A stretch of 64,000 nucleotides of DNA from Sphaerolaimus hirsutus (lineage: Eukaryota > Nematoda > Chromadorea > Monhysterida > Sphaerolaimidae): contig OZ038451.1 in the NCBI GenBank assembly GCA_964036195.1, forward strand, positions 13,892,529 to 13,956,528. Direction: 5' to 3'. A program made the translations under genes and the position numbers. The notes below the pieces were generated by a model. The model worked only from the letters and a program-made list of their open reading frames with translations, did no database searches and was not told the DNA's origin. Below are positions 596-57,359 of the stretch, one piece after another (position 1 is the stretch's first letter; each line of letters opens with the position of its first letter).

Positions 596-1313
596 GCCAG
601 CATGCATCTAATACATATGCTTTCAAAAATTTCATTACATTCAAGGGACATTTCATGAGAATGGGCAGTTTTTTGGTGGTTTCAAGTTTTGATTTGGACC
701 TTAAGTCAGTATCATGTGGGACACAAACTATCATTCTTCCATATAATTCTATATAGGATGGCATCAGTCTTATTCATATTCATCTCCTTCCCATTTAATT
801 AGCTGAAATTAAAATTTGTTACAAAAATCATTTCAAAATAATAATCAAAATTCTATTTGATGGTAAAAAAACAAACATTTTATCAGTCATCTGTAAATCA
901 ATCAAACATGCTGTAAAGCGCATCTGGCATGTAATAAGTGCGCATATGTAATATGCACAACATAAATATATAGAAAAAAGCCGAAATCACCAGCACCTAT
1001 GTCCTCTCGGCGGCGGGCGCTTCCAGGCGCACTACCTGTGCAAAATGGTCATGCTTCCGCTATCTTTTCACTCGATCTGGCCGCGCAGCGGGCCGGCCGC
1101 TTATTTACGCTTTGTTTCCGGCCAATGTGACTGTTTCATTGTCATTTTCGACCGGTGCGAGCGCATGCAATGCAACGAGCCGGTGATCGGTTAGCGCCGC
1201 CGTGTCGGCCCTGCAGATTGCATCGTGTGAAAGCGATTTCTCATGCGTTTAATAGCCCACGCAAGATTTGCCGTGCCCGACACGCGTTTTCGGGCAGCCC
1301 GATTCGGTACTCT

Positions 1314-1491
1314 GGGGGCAGTCCCAGACCCTGTAAAATGTGAAATGTCATGCAATGAGTCAAAAGTCATGTAAAATGTCCTGTAAAATGGCAACCGGGT
1401 TGCCATTTTGCAGGGTATTTTACATGACTTCTGACACTCTGCATGACATTTGACACTTTACAGGGCATTTTACAGGGTCGGGGATTGGCAC
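1314..1491. mobile_element. Hairpin (MITE-like) element, intergenic copy
   Basis: Starts ggggcagtcccagaccctg and ends cagggtcggggattggc, an inverted pair. The interior repeats CCTGTAAAATG on the left and CATTTTACAGGG on the right, so the whole copy can fold back. No coding capacity. It belongs to the family that also interrupts exons at 48.8-53.2 kb. CGGGCAGCCCGA-type sequence lies on both flanks. Confidence 0.75.
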
Positions 1492-2886
1492 GAGATGTTG
1501 TACCCTGCCCGATTGAACTGTTTGTGGTTGGCAGTTGTTGATTAGAATGTGGTTCATGTTGGGCTAATAAAATTCCGGACCAGCTAGCGGCGCGCCGACT
1601 GACCGCGGTTCATGTGCCCTAACGATCGGTTGAAAGTTGAAAAACTGCCGCCGCGCAACTTTTATTAATGATAATGGTTCTTCCGACTGAATTGTCTCGG
1701 CTCGATTCGCCCATTTTCGAGCCTTTAGATGACAAATTTGGTAGTAAAATTCTGCCGCCGCGAAAATGACTGAATAAGATTGCTATCAGTTCGATGGCAA
1801 TTTTCTAAATATAGCGCATGCTGTGGGTGTCAAATTGTAAAGTGAATCATGGTCGATGTCATTGTAAACTAAGCCGCCAGTTTAGGTCAGGATCGAGTTC
1901 CTCTCTTTGTCAAGTTTCAAGAAAAATGTCAAGCCACAAGAAAGGATACACGTTAACAAGCTGCTAGAATCAATTATTTAATGAAAAACATTTGTCACGT
2001 ACATTTTTGTTACCACTAGAGACTTTTCCCCCTTCTAGAAACATGTCACTTTACAGTATATGGAATTGGCCCCAGTGTGAAAATTTCGATCAACTTCCAA
2101 TGCTGCCGCGTGGTCAGCTGGTTGAGTAATGATCACCAGTACGGTGGGCCACCTTGTCGCGCCGCTGATACGACGTTTTCGATGTAGCATCCTTACGAGA
2201 GATTAATTTAACGACATTACTTCGAGCAGCAGATGGCTGGCTGGTTTCCAGAATTTTTTTTCGTTGATTTATTTCTCGAGTCGGCACATTTGTGTGAAAC
2301 TGAGGTGGGCAGCTATTTGTCATTGCGGCGCCACCACAACGCTCATAAGGTTGTCCACACCAAACACGTGGTTATCGGTTTTATTATACCCACTTATTCA
2401 AGTTGAACTTGGTGCGTGTTTCTCCGTCAACTGGTTTTCTACATGGACCTATCATTAGGTTGCATCGGCTTTATAAAATGTCTATGTGAAGGCGAAAGTC
2501 CCATACACAAACATGCCTCCGCGCACATTTCACCAACTTGTTTGAGAAGCGTGTAATTTATTCCCAGTGATGCGACCTTGTCCCTCACCTGTTTCGAGGT
2601 GTCTCACAGTTGACACTTTTTGACTATTTATTGCAGCGCGGTTTGCTTCCCTGCAGCGGCTTCCAAGCCGCGCGGCTAGATCGTGGATAGTGCCGCTTGC
2701 CATATGGCCTCCCTCCCTATGAACTCGGCGCCACCGCGAACTGTGAGAAAGAGGCATTTTTACGGCCGCCAGCCGGCGGCGGTGAGTCAAACTTTAAGCC
2801 GCCGCGCCGCGATGACAGGTAGCCTGACGCGCGTGTCGACAACCGCTGCACGCTGCGCGCCCGTAAACTCGCGTTTGCATTTCCTG

Positions 2887-3074
2887 GGTGCAGTCCCAGA
2901 CCCTGTAAAATGCCCTGTAAAATGTGAAATGTCATGCAATGGGCCAAAAGTCATGTAAAATGCCCGGTAAAATGGCATACATGTTTTCTATTTTACCGGG
3001 CACTTACATGACTTTTAACACTTTGCATAACATTTGACATCTTGCAAGGCATTTTACAGGGTCTGGGACAGGCG
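2887..3074. mobile_element. Hairpin (MITE-like) element, intergenic copy
   Basis: Left end ggtgcagtcccagaccctg, right end cagggtctgggacaggcg; the arms pair through repeated CCTGTAAAATG / CATTTTACAGG units. CCTG is found on both sides (2883-2886 and 3075-3078), a possible short target duplication. Non-coding. Confidence 0.75.
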
Positions 3075-3086
3075 CCTGTAGCTGTA

Positions 3087-6725: not shown

Positions 6726-7205
6726 GTAATATTTATAATAACAACGAAGTATCTACGCGTAAATGGATACCAAATAGGCATGAAGGGCGTAAAAAATACG
6801 CGGAGCGTAATTCATCAAATTGCTTCGGTTGGGCGACACGCAGACGGGCCGCGCGCATGCCTCAAGCCCGCAAGTAAATATATTTACATGCACCCTTCCA
6901 CTTACTTATATTTCCGCATTTGCGTGTAACGGTCGCCTAATTGAGTGCACAGTAAATGAATATGTAAATGTTCAGCGAGAATTTTATCAGCGATATCGCA
7001 TCGATATTCCGCGACGATTGGCGATAAAAGATGCATGACCGTGTCGCAATCAGTATGACAGTGTGTCGCGCGCAACGGGGAAACTTCGTTGATAACTTTA
7101 GTGACCGAATTAAATCAGCCTGACACTTTTTTTTCGGGTAGCCCGATAGATTGTGAATGTGGTTCAGGCTGATTAAACTAAACATTGCCCGATTCATGTG
7201 TTTCT

Positions 7206-7390
7206 GGGAGCAGTCCCAGACCCTGTAAAATGTCCTGTAAAATGTAAAATGTAATACAAAGTGTCAAAACTGATATAAAATGCCGGTAAAATGGAAAACA
7301 CGTTTTACCGGGCATTTGACCGGGCATTTTACATGACTTTTGACACTTTGCATGACATTTGACATTTTAGAGGGTCTGGGACTGCCCCCT
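7206..7390. mobile_element. Hairpin (MITE-like) element, intergenic copy
   Basis: Left end gagcagtcccagaccctg, right end gggtctgggactgcccc, with internal TGTAAAATG / CATTTTACA repeats forming the stem. Flanked on both sides by CGGGCWRCCCGAT-type sequence (about 7105-7195 and 7405-7425), suggesting insertion into or beside that older repeat. Confidence 0.75.
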
Positions 7391-8156: not shown

Positions 8157-20628
<12,472 letters not shown>

Positions 20629-24600: not shown

Positions 24601-24890
24601 AGTTCAAGTACATGACATTAGCTAGCAACACTACAATCATGCAAATAATTCATTGATATATAGAAATCTTATGAGACAAAAACCAGAAATAAAAGAAAGC
24701 AGAAACTCTGTACACTAGCATTGCCTCGGTGATTACTGCCACAGTTGCTAACTGACACCATTGACATACAGGGACAAATGCAATTGAATGGCAATGATTG
24801 AATGGCAAAAACTGAATGAGGCAGTCAGTTACTTCGAAGCTGAGAATTGGCACTTTCCTACATGACCCTAAGTTTGTGTTATCCACCTGG
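21661..24890. other. Intergenic DNA, GC-rich island then AT-rich
   Basis: About 21.8-23.45 kb is GC-rich with CpG-dense text. From 23.5 kb it is AT-rich. I see no splice-linked coding exons, known domains or RNA genes. Confidence 0.5.
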
Positions 24891-25037
24891 TGCCAGTTCC
24901 AGACCCAGTAAAAGAAACTGTAAAGTGTAAAAGACCCTGTGCAATAAAAAAATGAAAATGTCATGTGTCATATAAAAGACACTGTAAAGTGTCAAATGTC
25001 ATGTAAAAGACACTATAAAGTGTCATGTGTATAGAAA
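24891..25037. mobile_element. Hairpin element fragment next to a tRNA-like relic
   Basis: The left end is CTGGTGCCAGTTCCAGACCC followed by repeated GTAAAAGA and CTGTAAAGTGTC units. The expected right end is missing; the tRNA-like sequence begins about 12 bp downstream. Probably a truncated copy of the subtype at 26220-26597. Confidence 0.55.
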
Positions 25038-25049
25038 GAGTGCAAAATT

Positions 25050-26219: not shown

Positions 26220-26597
26220 GGGGCAGTCCCAGACCCTGTAAAAGACCCTGTAAAGTGTAATGTAATGTGTAATGTAATAGACCCCGTAAAATGTCATGTA
26301 TCATGTAACAGACACAGTAAAGTGTCAAATGCCACGTAAAAGACCCTGTAAAGTGTCATGGGTATCCAAATTTTATTTTATCATATTCAAATATTATGTT
26401 TTTGTATCAAAATCTTACTTTTTGACATAAGATTGGGATATCATAATATAAGATTTGGATACACATGACACTTTACATAGTCTTTTACATGACATTTAAT
26501 ACTTAACAGGGTTTGTTAAGTGACACATAACATTCAACAGGGTCTTTTATATGACACATGACATTTTACAGGGTCTTTTATGGGTCTAGGACTGCCC
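26220..26597. mobile_element. Hairpin (MITE-like) element, long-loop subtype
   Basis: Left end ggggcagtcccagaccctg, right end gggtctaggactgccccct. Left units are GTAAAAGACCCTGTAAAGTG; right units are CTTTTACATGACA. The loop holds gtatccaaattttatt and inverted aagatttggatacacatgac, the same loop type as the copy inside the SMYD4-like gene (51524-51871). It sits at the centre of the large palindrome. Confidence 0.8.
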
Positions 26598-26959
26598 CCT
26601 CCGTTGCAATATACAAAACCCTATGTATTGCCCATACTGGATATTGCACATGGGAATTAATCACACATATTTTTGCTCTATTGCACAAGGCTAATATTGC
26701 ACATCTATGCTGACAATTGCACAGTGCCAAACACAGATTGCACATGTATAGTGCCAAACACTGTTGCACAGTGAACATCAGCTGCAAATAAATATGTAAT
26801 TTTTAATGAATGCATAGTTCCATATTTACAATGTTTTTATTGATTTTCGGTGATTTCATATTTACTATTATGCAGGCAATGAAAGGCAGCTGTGTTTGCA
26901 GAAAAAGGACAATTGCAGACACAGACAATCACACATATCAGGGGGCAAACTTCGGTATA

Positions 26960-46400: not shown

Positions 46401-47844
46401 GCTAGATCCGAGAACCCAGTCCCATTTACACAATAGCACAAACCCGTGCAGCAACAGGCCGCGGCCGAGCTGGCTGGCGGCCAACAAGCGAGCCACGGAG
46501 GGGTTCTCTGCGCACGCGTTCGTCAGTGCTTGCACAGCCACCCGTCTTTCGCCGAGGGAAACGCCCGATCCCGATTCTGGGGCACCTGCCAGCGCAGCTA
46601 GGGTGATTGCCTATGAGGATATTTGGTGGGATAAAATTGAAATTAATTGTGAGAGTGCCACGTAGGGTTCAAACGATATCACTTTTCGATATCGATATTC
46701 GATATTCGACATTTTTTCAAAATTTTTGATATCGATATTCGATATTTTTTCAAAATTTTCGATATCGATATTCGATACGATATGGACCCTCGATATCGAT
46801 ATTCGATATTCAATACTAAAAAATGGTCAATATTTGATATCGATATTTTCGATATTCGATATTTAGCTTTTGGTATAGCAAGGCATATTTCAAGCAGCAT
46901 ATTGTATTTTCATATGGTTCCAAACAGGGTTGATTATCTCTTTACTGAAAAGTACAATTGATTTTAACAAGGTTTACAATGGTCAGAATGATAAAATCAA
47001 AGAAAAAACATGACAAATCAAATTGTATCAGACAAACTAAAATTGGTAGATATTACAATTCATACTTTTAACCCAATTGTTTAAGGGCATGTTGCAAAAA
47101 AGCAGCATATCAGCATTTTCTGGCTTCAAATTTGAGGTAGGTAGTTCAGTAGGTATGTGGCCAAACCAAATACAAGAAATGTGGAGCAAGCACTCCAACC
47201 AAGATGACATTAAATACTTTACTTTTACTCATCAACTTAGATACTATAAGCAAATCAAATTAATCACAAATATCTCAAAACAAAAATAATAACTTAAGGA
47301 CATTATACAGGTTCGATATATCGAAAATATGGTCGATATTCGATATCGATATTCAATATTTTTTCAAAATTTTCGATATCGATATTTGATATTTTTTCAA
47401 AATTTTCGATATTCGATATTAAAAAATGGTCGATATCCGATATTCGATACGATATATCGTTTGAACCCTAGTGCCACGGGATACATTAGTCATGTGCTAA
47501 GGTAGGTAGTTTAAACACAACCAGCTTTTGTTCAAACAATGCCGTGCTATGGGTGTGTAGAGTTTCTATAAATCAGAAAAAAAGCATATTTTATTGTCGA
47601 ACGGATACAACGCGCACTACACGTTTTGTTCGCAGCTATAAGTAACTAAACGCAAACTTGGCCAAGTGCCAAAATAGTCACATTCAAAACGTACTAGCTT
47701 GGCACCATCCCTCGCGAACTCCTGCACACCCTCAAGGCTGGCAGTGGTGCCGAGCAGATGTTGCAAAGCCGTGCGACGCACATCAGGCCGGGCTTCGATG
47801 CCCACAAACTGCACCAGGTCGGCGAAATCGGACGGGGACAACAT
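40427..47844 (-). CDS. HGH1: Protein HGH1 homolog, eEF2-folding cochaperone
   Basis: HGH1 is a cytosolic armadillo-like adaptor that helps the TRiC and Hsp90 chaperones fold elongation factor eEF2. Exons on the minus strand, 5' to 3': 47844-47691, 46597-46444, 44365-44235, 43806-43591, 42841-42651, 40621-40427. All introns are GT-AG and phases close: 1041 nt, 346 residues, close to the family length. Family-typical stretches: RRVAVQALTNAC (exon 2), LIRNCCF-like GIIRNCCFDT (end of exon 4), EMEDIVAELQYLPEEK (exon 5), and LCATAVGRE...LGAYYILREWHKHE...LIRTEDE (exon 6). The start is MLSPSDFADLVQF, the first ATG in frame. Introns are full of transposable elements. It is divergent with the SMYD4-like gene, 584 bp between start codons. 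Function is transferred from the family. Confidence 0.93.
40885..41322. mobile_element. 438-bp foldback element in HGH1 last intron
   Basis: Arms of about 200 bp: left end caggggtgggcatcttcagt, right end actgaagatgctcacccctg. The arms carry the matching text ccgtttgggttgcaaact / agtttgcaacccaaacgg. TA lies on both sides (40883-40884 and 41323-41324). The centre is G-rich, near 41090-41140. Confidence 0.85.
41328..42537. mobile_element. hAT-like element with TTACGCTT arrays in HGH1 intron
   Basis: Ends CAGAGTTGCGAAAGCG and TTTTAACAACTCTG. The exact 8-bp duplication CTGTACAC flanks it (41320-41327 and 42538-42545). It inserted at the very edge of the 40885-41322 foldback. Arrays of TTACGCTTACGCTTTC lie at both ends. 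A TACCGTATTACCTCGA repeat is nested inside (41511-41923). Confidence 0.85.
41511..41923. repeat. Nested TACCGTATTACCTCGAAATA repeat
   Basis: Left end taccgtattacctcgaaata with CCCCCATGGGGG, right end gataattcgaggtaatacggta. Contains several GAGGGGGGGTTTATTATTTC units. Inserted within the TTACGCTT-array element. Confidence 0.7.
43346..43455. mobile_element. 110-bp hAT-like element in HGH1 intron
   Basis: Ends TAGGGTTGGAAAA and TTGCCAACCCTA. Border octamers are TACCATAC and TACTATAC (7 of 8 identical). The interior resembles the AAAATC...TTTT arms of 35471-36208. It lies in a short relic of CGGTACGGTA-type array (about 43330-43525). Confidence 0.75.
45039..45913. mobile_element. Element with ends GGACGTAGCCAGG in HGH1 intron 2
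   Basis: Left end ggacgtagccagggggg, right end ctggctacgtcc, inverted. Both sides share TTTGATT in the flank. No coding potential. TIRs of this kind are common among animal non-autonomous DNA transposons. Confidence 0.6.
46663..47470. mobile_element. hAT-like element with ATCGATATTCGATAT arrays
   Basis: Ends TAGGGTTCAAACGATAT and ATATCGTTTGAACCCTA. The exact 8-bp duplication GTGCCACG flanks it (46655-46662 and 47471-47478). Arrays of GATATCGATATTCGATATTT lie at both ends, with about 430 bp of AT-rich text between. Located in HGH1 intron 1. Confidence 0.87.
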
Positions 47845-48428: not shown

Positions 48429-51400
48429 ATGAAAGGAAAAACATTAAAAAATCCCACGGCCTCATCGCCAACAGGTGAAAATAACATCGCAGCCAGTGGC
48501 GAACTTTATCTGGGTGAAAACGCCAATGTCTGCGGATTGAGCGCAGCCGCCGCAGTCAGATACTCGCAGAAAAAGGGTAGATGCGTAGTTGCCGAGCGAC
48601 AAATTCCAGCGGGAGCGTTGATTGTTTGGTAGGCCACCAAAAACCAACCATTATAACAAAACAGGTCAATTAAAAATCCAAAAAAACCTTTCACATCGTC
48701 AAGCGAGAGCGCCTACGCGGTGGGCATGGGGCCACAGTGCGTCGAGTGGCTGTGTGCTAGCTGTTGCAAACCTCTGCCGCAAAAATGGGTCATATGTGCG
48801 GATTGCCGTGGTGGTAAGATGACCAGGGACACTCACAGACCCTGTAAAATGACCTGTAAAATGCCAAATTCATTGTAAAGTGTCAAAAATCATGCTTTAC
48901 GTGACATTTTACGTGGCATTTTACAGGGTCTGGGACTGGCACCAGATACTGTGGCGAAAAGTGCAGGCAAATCGATTGGTGTGAAGCGCACAGATTTGAG
49001 TGCAACAATGTAAGTATAAAGCACAGGACAAACCCTGTACTCATTATGGGTGCCTCCTACTGTCTGCCCCCTTGCAGGCTGACCCGTATACAGGTTTTCA
49101 GCTCGGTGACAAGGCTGATCAACTGCTGCTGGTGCCAGTCCCGGACCCTGTAAAATGTCATATGTCATGCAAAGTGTCAAAAGTCATGTAAAATGGCCTG
49201 CAAGGGCATTTTACATGGCTTTTGACACTTTGCATGACATTTGATACTTTACAGGGTCTGGGACTGCCCCCTGGTTGGTCTGTCGCTGCAGATGCGCATC
49301 CTGTGGCGCGCTTCACCGCAGCAACTGATGCAGTGTGATCCAATTAGCAATACTTATTACACGCTACACACGCGTGGCGTTTCTTTGACCAATGGCGAAC
49401 GCAGTTCAGATTTTGGCTCAAACTTTATCTCAGTTATGAGTCTTAGTGGCGGAGAGTTGATGGAATGTGAAGGCGAAAATGAAAAATTTACATTTCTTGG
49501 CGATGCTTACTTCAAGCAGGTAATATGCCACTTCGCGTGTAGGTAATTTTTGAACTTACTTTTGTAAGTACTTAAGTCGCAGTAGGTACTTTTGTAAAAA
49601 AAAATATTTCTCAAATCTCACAATTTTTTTTGACAGAAACAAACTCCATCCGATTATTTTCCTAGGTAATAAATTTTTACGTTAATTTACAAGAACTTCC
49701 GGAAGTTAATCGTAAATACAGTTTCCCAGCAGTTCAGCAATTGAACTAAATTGCCATTGAACCTTATTTGCTTCCATCCAGAGCGGTTGGCCCGCATCAA
49801 TGCGGCAGCAAGAGCGCCGCGCGGTTGCCCAGCGGTGTTGCAGCGTGCTGAGCGGCAAGATCTCACGCAACGCGCACTCGGTGCTGCCGCTGGTCGACCG
49901 AAGTTCGCCACACTATCAAATCTTGCGACACTTTGGTGAATCCGGCGGCCAGTTGATCAAAGGGATATTTCCGGTGCAAAGCTTGATTAATCACTCATGC
50001 GAGCCGAATTGCAGGTTCTGGGCACTACTGCATTTTGTATGGCTGTGGTAGACACCCAGAAGAATCTTTGGAAATTAGGATAATTTTAATTAGGAAATTA
50101 GGAAGCGGTAAAGACAGCAAGTTGGTATATATATACCTATTATATTCACCTACAATTTCTATATTTATCTATGTAAAACTCAATATCAAATCGCGCACAC
50201 CACAACACGCAGGTATATCTTCGATGGACGTCGTATTTTGACACGTACAACGGATTCTATATCAGCGGGTACGGAAATTGTTGCGTGTTATGGGCCGCGC
50301 TTTGGCAAGCTGCCAACAGCAGTGCGTCGAGCAAAATTACTTACACAATACAATTTTGTTTGCGACTGCGCCGCATGCACCATGCCGGCGTATGCCAAAT
50401 TGGAAGCGAATATGACAGCATTTAGGTGTGTTTTTTTCGAGAGTTGTTAAAAGTACTAAAGTTTTTCAAGTAAACGTATACGTAAAGTATTTTATTTTTA
50501 CTCACCCCCGAGTACAGAAAACGTTAAGTATTTTTTATACTTAAACACTGCGTAAAACTTGAGTAAACGTAAATACCGGTATTTTTACTCAGGGAAAACT
50601 TAAAAGTAAGGGTATTTTTCGATTTTGTACCCAGGAAGACGTAAAAATGAGCAAAAGTGAAAGCGAAAGTCGTCGCTTTCCCTACCCACCGCAACTTCCA
50701 TAATTTCTGCTGCCATTTTTGCAGCCATTTCAATTCGTTTGAGCGGTTTTTGCTTTCAAAAAGTACGCGAGTAAGTGAGTACCGGTATTTTTTCGGGAGG
50801 AAACGTAAACGTATTTATGCAGTACTCGAGTATAAGTATTTATCGAGTAAACGTAAATACGTTTGACCAACTATGGCCTTTTCCTGCTATAATCGTATAA
50901 AATGAAGAAAAAACATCTATGGACAAAACAGAACCTACTTGCGGGGCACTACTTTCCAGATGTGAAGGTTGTAACAACAGCGTGTACACTAATCCAGACG
51001 CAGACAAGTTGGTGTGCACGCAGTGCGACCACGTTCAAAGTTTATGTTCGTCTGGTGTTGCATGGGCTCTGAAGTGTTTAACGGACGCCATAGCCGCGGC
51101 CAAGCTGAAGAAAATCGGAGGCGATGGTGAGATTGTTTTCTTTATTTGACGAACTCGATACCGAAAAATTACCAAAAAATTATTTGTGTAAAAACGCAGG
51201 GGGTTCTCTAAACAAGTGTGTATAGGTAGTGGCATTTTAACACAAAACATTGTAGACTGAGAACACCATTTTTACACTCAAAACACTGGACGCTTTCCCC
51301 AAAAAGCAGTTTGCACCACAGCATCTACCCATCCCAATGGCAGGTGAAGCACTACTGAAATCACTGCATCGCTGCACCGCACTGCTGCACAAGAATAACG

Positions 51401-52134
51401 TGCAGCTGCACAACTACGAACTGCAAGCGGTCGACTTGCTGCTGTGCCGCCGGCCTTGTGCCGCGCTGCCGCTGCTGCGTCGCCGCTTGGAAATAGCTGA
51501 CTTGATTTTTGGTTCCTCGTCAGGGGGTAGTCCCAGATCCTGTAAAATACCCTGTAAAGGGTAAAAGACCCTGTAAAATGTCATGTGTCATGTAAAAGAC
51601 TCTGTAAAATGTCATGTGTCATGAAAAGACCCTGTAGTGTAAAGTGTAATATGTAATGTAAAAGACCCTGTGTAAGTGTCATGTGTATCCATATCTTATT
51701 GTATCATATCCAAATCTTATGTTTTTGTATATAAATCTTACTTTTAAACAAAAGATTTGGATACCAAAACATAAGACCTTGATACAATGCAATAAGATTT
51801 GGATACACATGACACTTTACAGACTCTTTACACTTAACATGGTCTTTTACAGGGTCTGGGACTGGCACCAGATGAGTCAGAAGCCATTTTGGCGCGACTG
51901 GCACTGGCTTCCGTGCTGGGATACGGGTGAGGAGTGGCTGTTTACCATACCGCTTTTGTAATCGATTTGTTTCAATCCTTCAGGGTGCGAGACAAACGGA
52001 CACAAGCGGCTGTGTTGAAAGCACGCGATGCCGCCATTGTGCACTTTGGAAGGGAATTTTATGGACGCGTTTATGCCATGAGATTTGGTCAGAAAGCTAT
52101 GCCGTTGCTAAAGATGATGAGCGAAATTTCCTGA
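48429..52134 (+). CDS. SMYD4-like SET and MYND domain protein
   Basis: Putative protein-lysine methyltransferase family member. Exons used: 48429-48628, 48704-48826, 48946-49009, 49078-49128, 49271-49519, 49782-50014, 50213-50425, 50960-51126, 51344-51523, 51872-51926, 51984-52134 (1686 nt, 561 residues). Before the MYND lies the split-SET start (KGRCVVAERQIPAG). The MYND zinc finger spans about residues 84-127 (C-ASC...C-ADC...YC-GEKC...H-RFEC). The SET core has SLINHSCEPNCR (about 296-306) and ACYGP (about 331-335). The post-SET cysteines are CDCAAC and CEGC...CTQC. Order and motifs match SMYD4; the N-terminal TPR part is short or missing, so an upstream exon is possible. Three junctions (48826/48946, 49128/49271, 51523/51872) are occupied by hairpin elements. 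I joined those by removing the element plus one direct-repeat copy; the true splice sites need RNA evidence. Other introns are GT-AG. Confidence 0.85.
48827..48945. mobile_element. Hairpin element in the MYND-coding region (site 1)
   Basis: Left end ggacactcacagaccctg, right end cagggtctgggactggc. ACCAG repeats at both borders (48822-48826 and 48941-48945). Interior TGTAAAATG / CATTTTACG units fold back. Removing 119 bp gives ATG ACC AG|A TAC TGT, reading CRGGKMTRYCGEKC across the zinc finger. No GT lies in the phase needed to pair with the CACCAG end. The in-frame GT-AG alternative is GTAAGA at 48814 with ttacag ending 48926, which retains 19 nt of the element end. Confidence 0.75.
49134..49270. 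mobile_element. Hairpin element between SMYD4-like exons (site 2)
   Basis: Left end gccagtcccggaccctg, right end cagggtctgggactgcccc, the opposite orientation to sites 1 and 3. CTGGT is duplicated at 49129-49133 and 49271-49275. Precise removal yields QLLLVGLSLQMRILWR in frame. The GT-AG alternative is GTGCCAG at 49132 with ctgcag ending 49291, which drops six residues (VGLSLQ). Confidence 0.75.
50441..50876. mobile_element. Array-bearing element in SMYD4-like intron
   Basis: Ends gagttgttaaaagtac and cgtttgaccaactatg, loosely inverted. The interior repeats GAGTAAACGTAAATAC and complements. It lies within the GT-AG intron 50426-50959 and resembles the CAGTTGTTAAAA element at 34874-35359. Confidence 0.5.
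51524..51871. mobile_element. Hairpin element between SMYD4-like exons (site 3), long-loop subtype
   Basis: Left end ggggtagtcccagatcctg, right end cagggtctgggactggcaccag. CAG lies at both borders (51521-51523 and 51869-51871). The loop (atccatatcttattgtatc ... aagatttggatacacatgac) matches the intergenic copy at 26220-26597. Removal gives SSSDESEA in frame. Here a canonical GT-AG pair at the element ends also works in frame: GTAGTC at 51527 with caccag ending 51871 (adds one Gly). Confidence 0.8.
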
Positions 52135-52380
52135 TATTTCGTTCTTCTGTCTATTTTTATGATGCTGTTGTAACAAGTGCAAACCCATGCGAATGTTATT
52201 ACCACATTCCACATATCGGTAATCTCAGCTTGCAAAATGTATTTACACGTACGTACCTACATTGTTTACAAGTTCTGTATATCGCACATGTAATACGGTC
52301 CAGCGCATAATATCAGTAGTAATCACGGACAATAGGTATATCAGTTTTCCACAAGCAGCGTTTACAACAAGACCTTTTAC

Positions 52381-53277
52381 ATGGCCATTCCAACCAGAAA
52401 TCATAATCAAGCCAAAGCTCTCCCAAACCTCATTCTTTTATCACTGATAACACAAGTATTTTCACCAATACGTGCCGCCGTGCACCGACTGCCGCTGCCA
52501 GCCGCGCCGCAACGGATGCGTTTCGTCCGCCCGCCGCCCTACGAAACGCAGCGGCCGCAGCTAGTGGACTGGGAGCAGTTCTCGAACGGCACTGTGGCTG
52601 GGCGGCAGTTGACGCCGGTGGATATTGGCCAGTTGAGATATATGGGGGCCCCTGCGTCGTGAGTTTTGGGCGTTCCAGTCGATTGTCCAGTATCCAGCTA
52701 TTTTAACTCAACTTGATTTCCGATATACTGTCATCAAAAATGTCATGCAAAAATACATGATAAATACAAGAAATAAATATTAAGAAACTATCCATTCAAT
52801 TCTTGGTGACCTTTCACAAACTTCAACTCGATAACTAGGTCGCACAGTACAACCCCCGCCTCAGTTGGCAAGTGCGGCACATGTGGTGCGTGCGCGACTG
52901 CCGCGACCACTCGTCGACGCTGTGCTACGGCTACAACTTCTGGCGGCCGCTGCTCCAGGGGGCACTCTCAGACCCTGTGAAAGAACCCGTAAAATGTCGA
53001 ATGTTGTGCATGTAGAAAGTGTAGAAAGTCATGTAAAATGCCTTGCAAAATAGCAAACGTACATCTGCCATTTTGCCGGGAATTTTACATAACTTTTGAC
53101 ACTTTGCATTGCATTTTATTTACATTTCACAGGGCATTTTACAGGGTCTGTGAGTGGCCCCAGCTGCCCGGCAACACGACGTGGCTGGAGTCGTGCGGCT
53201 GCGTGCGACATTGCAGCGATTGCGCCGGCTGGCCGCACCCGGCGGATAGCGTTTGCGCCAGTAGGTGCTGCTATTAG
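52381..53277 (+). CDS. Putative secreted Cys-rich protein, structure incomplete
   Basis: Not recognised. The first exon (52381 to about 52658) begins MAIPTRNHNQ and includes a hydrophobic stretch LILLSLITQVF that could be a signal peptide, then a Pro-rich region; it ends at a good GTGAGT donor. The second part (52839-52958 joined to 53164-53277) encodes a Trp/Cys-rich segment: MWCVRDC, LCYGYNFWRP, SCGCVRHCSDC, and ends SRCCY. It has ten cysteines and strong GC at third positions, which supports it as coding. A hairpin element (52959-53163) splits it. The phases of the first donor and the 52839 acceptor do not match, so a small exon is missing or one boundary is wrong. Extracellular function is inference only. 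Confidence 0.55.
52959..53163. mobile_element. Hairpin element inside the Cys-rich coding region (site 4)
   Basis: Left end ggggcactctcagaccctg, right end cagggtctgtgagtggc. CCAG is found at 52955-52958 and 53160-53163. Removing 205 bp joins CTG CTC CAG to CTG CCC GGC (WRPLLQ-LPGNTTW) in frame. The in-frame GT-AG alternative is GTGAAAG at 52977 with ccccag ending 53163, which adds GALSDP. Confidence 0.75.
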
Positions 53278-53516: not shown

Positions 53517-53970
53517 TACCGTATTTCCTCGAAATACCCCCGGGGGGTTTATTGTTTCATAGTGAGAATTTTGAGGGGGGTAAACGAGGGGGGGGGTATT
53601 TCGAGGGGGTTTTTTTTTCGCCAGAAATTTTTTGAAAACCAAGTACTAGATTGTCGTCTGAAACGTACGCAGACGTCGAAAATGCAACAAAAATCGCCAT
53701 TTATAAGACTCTAAAGACTTGTATAAGTGTGTAGACGTTCTGTCGAATCACTGTTCTCACACAACAGAGTCATCGTTTTTAACGTGTGTTTTGCATTACC
53801 CAGATGACAAACCGCAGCCTTTGTCATTTATGTTCTCTATACACTAAATTGGGGGGGGGGGGTATTTCGAGGGGGGGGGGGGTTTATAAGTTCATAGTGT
53901 CCATTTTGAGGGGGGTATTTCGAGGGGGGGGTATTTCGAGGGGGGGGGGTATTTCGAGGAAATACGGTAC
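53517..53970. repeat. TACCGTATTTCCTCGAAATA repeat copy
   Basis: Left end taccgtatttcctcgaaata followed by CCCCCGGGGGG; right end gggtatttcgaggaaatacggta. Interior G-runs repeat as GGGGGGTATTTCGAGG. Confidence 0.75.
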
Positions 53971-54387: not shown

Positions 54388-57359
54388 ATGGGCGATAACC
54401 TATTCAACACGTTCAGTTTCAACATTTGGAAAAAGCACAAAGTCGACTCGACGCTCGAACTCAAGAATAACACCAAGCGGCGGCGGGAAATCGCCAAATT
54501 GAAACGTGCTTTGAAGGAAAAACGACTGGGCAAGACGAGAACGGTGCACGTGAAAGGCGTGAGCGACACAAAAGAGGGCCTGGAAAATGCACTTGAGAAG
54601 GCTGTTAAGAAGGCAGAGAAAGCTGGGGATAAGAAAGCTGGTGAGCTATTTTTGTTGGTTGCATGTAATTGATAATAAGGTTCCATTTGAAGGAGTCTGA
54701 TCACTCTGACATATACCTAGTCTATTTACTCTAACATAAAGAGAAACTGACAGAGCCAATGGTAAAACTTACATGTCCAGCGAGAAACTGACATGCAAGG
54801 TCAACCTGGGGGCAGTCCCAAGCCTTGTAAAGTGTAAAGTAAAGTGTCAAATGTAAAGTAAAGTGTCAATCAAAACAAAAAAAGAAAATATTTTATTACT
54901 GAGATTTGCATGACAATTGACAGTTTACTTTGCATTTGACTTTACATTTGACACTTTACTTTGCATTTGACTTTACATTTGATACTTTACTTTACACTTT
55001 ACAGGGCTTGGGATTGCCACCTGGCATGTGCAGTATGAAACTGGCATGCCCTCCACACGCTACAATAAATCCTCAAGGCGTGTGGGACATAAATTAATCT
55101 GTCTGTTTAATAAAACTATCTGTTTCAATAAAATGATAAAATGATTTCATTGAACTTTTTATTTCCCGTATATCCTCAAATAAGACCCCAGGGGAGTTAT
55201 TATTTCATCAGAAGTTTTGGAGGGGGAGTTATTCAAGGGGGGATGTTATTCAAGGGGGGATGTTTTTCAAAAGGGAGTTTTTTTTCTCTCAGAACTTGCA
55301 CTTTATTCATTGTATAAATGCATTCCATCAAGTCGTGTAATCCACATATTTTACAGTTCAACAACAACAAAAACAAGGTACCTATTCATATTAAAATTCG
55401 TGTTCAACAGCATCCAAATCATTCAAATACACATTGTGGATGCACATATCAAACAAGCAGGTGGGGAGTTATTCAAGAGAGGGAGTTATTGAAGGGGAGG
55501 AGTTATTTTTTCCTCACTTGGCCAACAGGGGGGGGTTACTCAAGGGGGGATGTTATTCAAGGGGAGGACTTATTCAAGGATATACGGTATACTTTTTTAA
55601 GGTAAGCAGCATTGTATACCGTATTTTCTCGAATAGTTCCCCCAGGGAATTATTTTTCCTCAGACTTTTTTGAAGGGGGGAACTATTCAAGGGGGGAACT
55701 ATTCAAGGGGGGAATTATTTTTTTTGTCAAAATTTTCAAGCACAGTTCTTTCAATTTATTTCGCACAACATTCATGTTTAATGAAACAACATGCTATTCT
55801 TGTTCAAATTCAACCAACAATTTATCATGTGCCTAAAATTCAGTGTATACACAAATGGAATAGCGTATACACAACATATAAATACACGTGTCCCCCAATG
55901 CCTATACCTATGCCCTTTCCCATCGGTAGTGCATATTCCATTGTATTTTTGCACACCGGACGCATTTGCATGGATGACGCATTCAATGCCCAGACGTAGC
56001 AGCTCTTCTGCTTATGCATGCGTGCGTCATCAATCGCTTTTAAGTACCGTATTTCCTCGAAATACCCCCCCCCCCCAAATTGAGTGTAAAGGAACGTACA
56101 TGACAAATACTGCAGTTTGTGTTCTGCGTAGTGCAGAACACACGTGAAACAATGTCGGAATCACGTTAGAACAGTGTTTACAAGTTTTCTTATTTTTACC
56201 CATTCTGTACGAATATACCATAGTGACTTTGTGCACTGTGCATGTTACAGACCGCCTGTGTCTTAGCAATTCAATTTTTGTATAAATGAATGCACTTACA
56301 AGCCTTTCAGCTTAATGCGTGTGTAGGGCATGTCAGTTTCACTTTCAGGCATTAGCAAAAAAAAGCAACAAAAAAAAGCATGTCAGTTTCACCACTGGGA
56401 ATGTCAGTTTCACGTGATGTCAGATTCCCATGCGTGGCATGTCAGTTTCACTTCATCTTCTGCTATTCTGGAAAAGCCTCTCTCAGACTGATAGCTCCCT
56501 CCAGACTGTCAGTTGCTGCGAGAACCGGTATTCGATGGGGTGATTTTTCATTAAGCAGCGTTTACACGCTTTCGTGTGCCGACAAAAAAGTTTGGTGGAA
56601 AAGTTCCATAATTCTGGAATTAAGTTTCATATATACAAGAAAAAACGGTGAATTGTGCTCACTAGTTATGTGTACACACATGCCAATTTGCAGATGATTT
56701 GAGCATGTCGTTCAAGAATTATAGGCATTTGAAAATTAATTTTAGTTGTCGGTTCGGTTTTCGTTTTGAAACCGAACCGACAACTGAAATTCATCTTCAA
56801 ATGCAAATAAGTCCTGAACGACAGGCTCAAATTATATGCAAATTGGCATGTGTGTAAACTTAACTAGTGAGCATACTTCACTGGCTTTTCCCGCAGATAC
56901 GGAACTTTATTCCGGAATTATGGAACTTTCTCGCTTAACTTTTTTGTCGGCACACGAAACCGTGTAAACGACCCTTAAGGTGTTCAAGGTGTTTCGACCT
57001 CATAACATACTACCCCCATCACACACACAATCATAAATCAATCCACCGTTCGCGCAGCGGCCGACGGTGCTCGATTCTTGGAGCGTAGTCGCATGGGCGC
57101 CGAGGGCCACAGCGTGGACGTGTCCTCCGAGGACAGCGACCTGGACGACGACATGTTCGCCGAGCTGCGCAACAGCGGCCAGCACCAACGCGATCACTTG
57201 GCCCCGCCCCCTGGCGGCACCGGGCAGACCGATCGGAATGGGAAAAACAAGTTTGATTCCGACAGTGACGATCGGCAAAGTGATTCCGACTCGGATTCCG
57301 ATTCCGATGATATTGGATTTATTCAGTGGAAATACAACGCGCAACCGGGCATGTTGTAA
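54388..57359 (+). CDS. Unrecognised 184-residue protein, basic N-half and acidic C-half
   Basis: Two exons, 54388-54640 and 57058-57359, joined by a GT-AG intron with matching phase (555 nt). Residues 1-85 are Lys-rich and look helical: FSFNIWKKHKVDSTLELKN, KRRREIAKLKRALKEKRLGK, then EKAVKKAEKAGDKKA. The C-half contains SVDVSSEDSDLDDDMFAEL and an Asp/Ser repeat (DSDSDSDSDD) before the end IQWKYNAQPGML. The composition suggests a nuclear or nucleolar protein, but I do not recognise the family. The start is the first ATG in frame; the frame is open further upstream, so the N-terminus could be longer. It is convergent with the V-ATPase c gene, 241 bp between stops. Confidence 0.7.
54810..55020. 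mobile_element. Hairpin element in the intron of the 184-residue gene
   Basis: Left end gggggcagtcccaagcctt, right end cagggcttgggattgccacc. Interior TGTAAAGTGTAAAGTAAAGT units pair with ACTTTACTTTACACTTTACA. The loop tcaatcaaaacaaaaaaaga matches the copy at 9824-9998. It lies wholly inside a normal GT-AG intron. Confidence 0.75.
55166..55589. repeat. TACCGTATATCCTCAAATAA repeat copy
   Basis: Left end cccgtatatcctcaaataag, right end tattcaaggatatacggta, with GTTATTCAAGGGGGGA units inside. A one-sided relative starts at 55617 (taccgtattttctcgaatag) and another at 56046. Confidence 0.65.

Follow-up and report, generated by a model that had tools for sequence, protein, structure and literature searches.

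In Caenorhabditis elegans, SOS splicing removes the inverted-repeat transposon Tc1 from mRNA. Introners are transposon families, many of them with terminal inverted repeats (TIRs) and short target duplications, that make introns in coding sequence; some carry one splice site and obtain the other from the target duplication, and rare GC and GA 5' splice sites are mentioned, while non-AG 3' ends do not appear in the results section of that paper (PMC9860276). Among animals and land plants, the same source places introners in two groups only, both animals, with copepods (protostomes) named as carriers. The introners of the dinoflagellate Amoebophrya have hairpin-forming inverted repeats, border direct repeats of 3-5 nt and non-GT-AG ends (PMC7789003), and in the tunicate Fritillaria 95% of introns are non-canonical, U2AF is duplicated and a fixed YAY triplet lies around the splice site (PMC13326754). 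The nonconventional introns of Euglena show terminal base pairing, with GT or AG missing, and a transposon origin has been proposed for them (PMC11170887), and TG serves as an alternative 3' splice site of human U2-type introns in 36 genes (PMC2374985). How introns originate has long been debated, and the introner families known from animals are few. Here we analyse a family of short inverted-repeat elements that interrupts coding sequence in a 64,000-nucleotide stretch of contig OZ038451.1 (positions 13,892,529 to 13,956,528; hereafter the window), together with its copies in the rest of the 348-Mb genome.

Comparison of the DNA sequences gives good support to an introner family in an animal, with elements in conserved genes, and makes spliceosomal removal requiring a 5' GT likely. 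Miniature inverted-repeat transposable elements (MITEs) whose GTGCCAG end comes first on the coding strand would probably become introns when they lie in exons, the 3' cut falling after the second of two flanking CWG triplets, be it CAG or CTG. The fuller proposition, that a single transposon family of a protostome-type animal needs the 5' GT and not the 3' AG, with the hairpin setting the 3' cut and GT..TG ends being tolerated, is more tentative, its chances lying slightly short of even; taken by itself, the exact removal of half of the coding copies as GT..TG introns stands at about even. The sequences directly show the family, its target, its insertion into conserved coding sequence, the orientation bias and the equal numbers of AG and TG ends; removal from RNA, the part of the spliceosome in it and the exact positions are inferred.

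By their structure the elements are MITEs, that is, non-autonomous DNA transposons: they have TIRs, a short target duplication and a high copy number, and are too small for a transposase. The first-pass annotation, made by a model from the letters of the window, had proposed counting copies across the genome, and an exact search with the outer repeat CAGTCCCAGACCCTGTAAAATG returned 1,091 forward and 1,067 reverse matches (2,158 together, against 0 for the reversed control); since a single copy may yield two matches, more than 1,000 copies carry the exact end. The variant end CWGGGGGCACTCCCAGACCCTG gave a further 373 + 416 matches (control 0). The family is both abundant and still near its consensus. 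The two element ends differ at their outer four bases (GTGC-CAGTCCC versus GGGG-CAGTCCC), and we call orientation A that in which the GTGCCAG end comes first on the coding strand and B that in which the GGGGCAG end does.

From the fetched loci and the window we assembled 140 copies, 123 of them distinct and 117 orientable. The target duplication is CWG (CAG or CTG), within a flank preference of about ACCWGGT; of the 117 oriented copies, 67 have an identical triplet to the left and right. Orientation and target combinations are balanced among these 67 clean copies (32 versus 35), indicating that insertion itself is without preference. Both orientations combined with CAG or CTG targets give four boundary combinations, and survival in exons tells which splice-site letters matter. 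Median length is 183.5 nt for 22 coding A copies and 171 nt for 91 other copies.

Four copies lie in two adjacent genes of the window:

48429..52134, plus strand: SMYD4-like methyltransferase gene, 561 aa, with seven introns read as GT-AG and three hairpin elements
48827..48945, minus strand: element e1, 116 nt plus the right CAG duplication, B orientation, GGACACTC..CTGGCAC on the coding strand
49132..49273, plus strand: element e2, 139 nt (49132-49270) plus the right CTG duplication, A orientation, GTGCCAG..CTGCCCC
51524..51871, minus strand: element e3, 345 nt plus the right CAG duplication, B orientation
52380..53277, plus strand: second gene, interrupted by e4, for a short cysteine-rich protein that looks secreted; bounds approximate and set by eye
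52959..53163, minus strand: element e4, 202 nt plus the right CAG duplication, B orientation

When 48827-48945, 49132-49273 and 51524-51871 are removed together with the seven introns, a single 561-aa frame runs from the ATG (48429) to the TGA (52134). Pfam places a SET domain at residues 50-334 (E 5e-11) and a weak zf-MYND match at 84-127, a layout that resembles SMYD proteins; the name SMYD4 is our own reading, shared with the first-pass annotation. That annotation had located the four copies and assigned them to one inverted-repeat family, which is confirmed, with seven further copies in the window. Its direct repeats ACCAG, CTGGT and CCAG do contain a duplication, but the actual unit is CWG, the remaining letters being chance or element-end letters. 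The in-frame restoration claimed for all four sites holds in the 561-aa frame for three of them; the second gene has no Pfam match, so that its coding status is read from the frame only. The MYND finger, which e1 splits and which was said to be rebuilt, does cross the joined e1 site, but in the 561-aa protein it falls below the family cut-off (E 0.004). The kept frame, offered as evidence for removal, is real but weaker than claimed and expected of clean transposition: frame returns after any clean insertion once the element and one duplication are taken out, which shows insertion and not splicing. Open reading frames (ORFs) of at least 80 codons crossed the junction in 44, 45 and 50 of 56 cases when +1 and +2 frame-shift controls were included, a comparison without discrimination that we dropped as evidence; a codon-usage model trained on long ORFs separated weakly and was not used.

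Introner-like intron gain finds support beyond the window, in conserved genes that contain the element in frame and for the most part in a single orientation. The element and one CWG were removed exactly from sampled copies, the flanks were joined, and conserved proteins were then sought across the join. A Pfam domain crosses the joined site in 14 individually read copies, six of them ending in CAG and eight in CTG (L numbers denote loci):

L026: Oscp1, CAG-ending
L031: RabGAP-TBC, CAG-ending
L074:2206: E1_dh of BCKDHA, CAG-ending
L050:3193: AA_permease, CAG-ending
L042:437: CHGN, CAG-ending
L082: KxDL, CAG-ending
L045: CBS of AMPK gamma, CTG-ending
L059: zinc finger, CTG-ending
L072: Srx-type receptor, CTG-ending
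L074:1423: E1_dh, CTG-ending
L075: Xan_ur_permease, CTG-ending
L042:1481: CHGN, CTG-ending
L113: Na/H exchanger (Na_H_Exchanger), CTG-ending
L117: 7tm_1 receptor, CTG-ending

Similar elements therefore interrupt coding sequence in many genes, and their similarity reaches the presumed splice borders. At L045 the Pfam match extends no more than about three residues to the left of the site, and the alignment to human AMPK gamma-1 runs across it without a gap; gap-free alignments to solved structures were obtained at three CTG sites in all (AMPK-gamma, BCKDHA and a muscarinic receptor). No Pfam match at E 0.05 was found for 13 of the 30 ORFs queried. The BCKDHA-like gene L074 holds two copies, one CAG-ending and one CTG-ending, and offers a natural internal comparison. 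Two coding A copies, L042:437 and L050:3193, are flanked by CTG at the left and by CAG at the right, a pattern that would arise had a mutation of the right triplet created a proper AG end. L113 (C16:12614954-12615807) and L114 (C4:24665609-24666462) are identical at 854/854 bases, reflecting a recent duplication or one locus assembled twice, and were counted once.

The 22 coding A copies divide evenly at the right-hand CWG, 11 having CAG and 11 having CTG once L031 and L045, whose ends were offset by an indel, are reassigned. The CAG-ending copies make perfect GT-AG introns, with the protein unchanged (0 nt) in all five checked, and the CTG-ending copies, e2 among them, would on exact removal be GT..TG introns. 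The scan for in-frame GT/GC-AG alternatives ran, at the left end, from about 30 nt upstream to 60 nt within the element and, at the right end, from 70 nt within the element to 60 nt beyond it. In 9 of the 11 CTG copies (L045, L059, L072, L074, L075, L042, L051, e2 and L117) the cheapest alternative gains or loses at least 18 nt, and its position falls within conserved blocks such as WTPY of TM6 in the muscarinic-type L117 or the first CBS strand of the AMPK-gamma L045, where such changes would presumably not be tolerated. Copies with AG and with TG have diverged equally at their ends (median 3 of 52 positions in either group, p=0.79), so the TG copies are not merely younger, and element age was rejected as a difference between them.

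These observations bear directly on the view that every coding copy is an introner spliced at some canonical GT or GC and AG, with small in-frame gains or losses, which we regard as unlikely. The perfect introns of the A-oriented CAG copies suit it, as do GT/GC-AG options that cost 3, 3, 6, 9 and 6 nt in e3, e4, L060, L092 and L113: a GT three bases inside e3 (GTAGTC) permits a GT-AG intron with one extra codon, and a GC three bases inside e4 permits a GC-AG intron, also with one extra codon. A GC donor at +2 used with a TTTTACAG-type site would add 21 nt in frame (L072, L074, L075, L042, e2, L117, L113 and L092), and the introners of Aureococcus are described as adding 12 bp to the transcript (PMC9860276). 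Against this view, however, stand the changes of at least 18 nt within conserved blocks that 9 of the 11 CTG copies would need, and the equality of CTG and CAG copies in both frequency and divergence. Splicing at the internal pair |GTAAAATG..TTTTACAG| was rejected as a general rule, since by our count it leaves 36, 37, 37 and 37 nt in e1-e4 and is out of frame in three of the four.

The preferred reading, in which the second CWG marks the 3' cut, may be spelled out as follows. MITEs would integrate at sites resembling ACCWGGT, duplicating the central CWG, and exon copies in orientation A would become introns at once. The junction would be CWG|GTGCCAGT..(hairpin)..CTGCCCCCWG|, with the first GT as 5' splice site and the 3' cut after the second CWG, regardless of the letter in its middle. 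The long stem may mask the internal sites GTAAAA and TTTTACAG, which look stronger; if both were used, 37 nt would remain by the consensus (our own count) and the frame would be broken. The stem may also draw the two ends close to each other, which would make a terminal AG dispensable. The predicted fold of e2 (-105 kcal/mol, z -16) pairs TTTACAG and all but one of the six GTAAAA bases. If a 5' GT is indeed all that is required, the birth of an intron would need just one splice site, and that one supplied by the element.

The case for splicing, and for a role of the GT, lies in the strand bias. ORFs spanning the junctions were ranked by amino-acid composition, and the best 60 of 159 in orientation A and the best 60 of 123 in orientation B were scanned singly against Pfam at E 0.001. 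Pfam matches were obtained for 13/60 ORFs in A and 0/60 in B (Fisher p=1.2e-4), the 13 falling in 11 families and 11 genes (L074 and L042 each count twice); counted by distinct element, the figures are 13/57 versus 0/50 (p=1.5e-4). Two errors affected the B list, e1 being misframed through an end-calling offset and L060 standing in the wrong frame. In the right frame both reach the threshold (e1 with zf-MYND at 1.2e-4 over the site, L060 with zf-H2C2_5 at 1.4e-6 right of the site), and with both entered as B matches the count by element becomes 13/57 versus 2/50 (p=0.005). The A list had errors of its own: L045 stood in a wrong frame, no ORF of L031 was included, and the rank of L059 was too low. 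Both L031 and L059 give Pfam matches when correctly framed, and they were left out of the A count. The A border GTGCC.. supplies a GT at the 5' side and the B border GGGG.. does not. Since an RNA hairpin or a DNA cut is indifferent to the coding strand and a splice donor is not, a GT 5' splice site is implied.

The first-pass annotation had left the choice between introner-like gain and hairpin excision. The introner side is supported beyond the window by the conserved genes, whereas a hairpin acting by itself predicts no orientation bias. Excision from RNA driven by the hairpin regardless of splice-site letters, comparable to SOS splicing or to euglenid nonconventional introns, would account for the very strong hairpins, for a 3' AG that is not needed and for the B copies in the window's gene, but the identical hairpin is present in both orientations and A-strand ORFs nevertheless dominate (13 versus 0, or 13 versus 2 when corrected); we consider it improbable. 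Per base, the predicted folds of coding copies are slightly stronger than those of the rest (p=0.016), a difference confounded by age, and hairpin strength was for that reason set aside as evidence.

Several observations weigh against the reading we prefer. Three of the four window copies (e1, e3 and e4) are B-oriented, as is L060; elsewhere B is the rare orientation, and the three in the window are what our reading explains least. Exact removal of e1 would give GG..AG, its cheapest canonical option costing 32 nt, and in L060 a GT would add two codons between zinc ligands. All four coding B copies have CAG on the right, and hence AG; no coding B copy with CTG was recognised. Each tolerated case observed thus has a proper end on one side or on both, the B numbers being small (4). 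Milder canonical alternatives exist in two CTG copies (L092, +9 nt; L113, -6 nt). Several of the 22 coding assignments depend on a recognised protein and not on a spanning Pfam match, L015, L018, L039/L040, L051, L063, L092 and L110 having been assigned by eye or by domains that merely abut the site. GT is retained in 22/22 coding A copies versus 80/91 others (in a set with L103 and not L082), a difference that is not significant (p=0.12), and GT conservation was therefore rejected as a sign of selection. The seven ordinary intron borders of the SMYD4-like gene were picked by eye with GT-AG in mind, so that they neither show nor exclude TG ends. Finally, the ends of coding copies are less diverged than those of other copies (medians 3 versus 4 of 52, p=0.03), which could fit younger or purged insertions as well as constraint.

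This last result is also what would be expected if the elements were recent disruptive insertions, in broken genes or in genes with intact alleles, with nothing removed at all. Restored frame, which follows by definition from clean insertion, also suits this explanation, as does the one copy of the 22 that matches the end consensus perfectly. Against it, the median coding copy differs from that consensus at 3 of 52 positions. Such insertions would moreover have struck conserved metabolic and signalling genes while leaving the surrounding frames intact, and would not predict the orientation bias. The first-pass annotation had named a second intact SMYD4-like gene as the finding that would mark the window's gene as a pseudogene; a genome-wide search with 162 aa of the protein (7/7 candidates scored) recovered its own locus and, on C14, a single further match of 41% that is confined to the MYND part; no second SMYD4-like copy was found. 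In the duplicated receptor gene L072/L073 the element sits at the same site in both copies. The joined ORFs differ in 4/137 codons, three of these changes altering the amino acid, and the elements compared by eye show few stem substitutions and a rewritten loop; most simply, the insertion predates the gene duplication and the frame has been kept since. We hold disruptive insertion to be very improbable. Programmed elimination, in which the elements would be cut from somatic DNA in the manner of ciliate internal eliminated sequences (IESs), agrees with clean direct repeats, a mobile origin and copies both within and between genes, but a DNA cut is blind to the coding strand and is opposed by the orientation bias, IES-like excision is not known to us from animals, though no search was aimed at it, and we give this explanation next to no credence.

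The host's splicing machinery was also surveyed. An exon-wise search for U2AF2 (U2AF1 was not searched) found one multi-piece U2AF2-like locus on C6 and weaker matches elsewhere, none at the family cut-off, and hence no sign of a Fritillaria-like duplication, a further point against our reading. Twelve U1 copies (L120-L131, on C1, C2, C3, C16 and C637) were fetched from 26 listed, 25 of which lie above the cut-off. Five of them begin with ATAAACTTACCTG at the 5' end and six with ATAAACTAACCTG, a difference that alters the sequence recognising the 5' splice site; one C637 copy, below the cut-off, has TACATACCTG. An adapted U1 was considered and rejected: there are at least two U1 classes and neither, in our reading, evidently pairs better with GTGCCAG. 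COX1 on contig C762 reads under invertebrate mitochondrial code 5, serine sites having AGA and lysine sites AAA, and the host is therefore not a tunicate. ND1 and ND2, named by eye, lie on the strand opposite COX1, and one element-bearing receptor matches the nematode-type Srx model.

The seven further family copies of the window, for which no strand is given, are:

1312..1494: family copy, coding context not recognised
2884..3076: family copy, CTG on both sides
7204..7388: family copy
9891..10008: diverged or partial family copy
24887..25040: part of a longer-subfamily, e3-like copy
26220..26600: longer-subfamily, e3-like copy
54809..55030: family copy, CTG on both sides

Two other repeat-rich stretches were seen there. 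Positions 46668-47460, which hold no recognised genes, contain two clusters of ATCGATATTCGATAT-type simple repeats, and recurrent GGGGGGTATTTCGAGG runs at 53540-53970 possibly represent another tandem or mobile repeat.

Compared with described systems, SOS splicing would be expected to ignore orientation, and the corrected counts (13/57 versus 2/50, p=0.005) depart from such independence. Introners as such, the hairpin introners of Amoebophrya and relaxed splice ends in an animal (Fritillaria) are already known, and what would be new here is the GT..TG type of end, for whose exact removal the chances are about even; in the literature searched, which leaves out most subscription papers, we met neither a GT..TG introner family nor protostome introners of such anatomy. 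The present elements resemble the introners described in PMC9860276 in their TIRs, target duplication and position in coding sequence, and differ in that about half of the coding copies would end in TG. In Amoebophrya, according to PMC7789003, borders are very variable and no family-specific inverted-repeat motif was detected, whereas here a single animal family has a fixed 5' GT and an orientation bias. The introns of Euglena have been proposed to be presumably independent of the spliceosome (PMC11170887), whereas the GT-first bias argues for the spliceosome here. The human TG site is an alternative one (PMC2374985), whereas here TG would apparently be the main 3' end of a recurrent class. 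In Fritillaria, also an animal, many introns lie outside the GT-AG rule and the YAY triplet compares with CWG (PMC13326754); its U2AF is duplicated, whereas one U2AF2-like locus was seen here, in a host that its mitochondrial code sets apart from tunicates. If the CTG copies are spliced exactly, structure can replace the 3' AG in an animal, which would link introners to the structure-aided introns of Amoebophrya, Euglena and Fritillaria.

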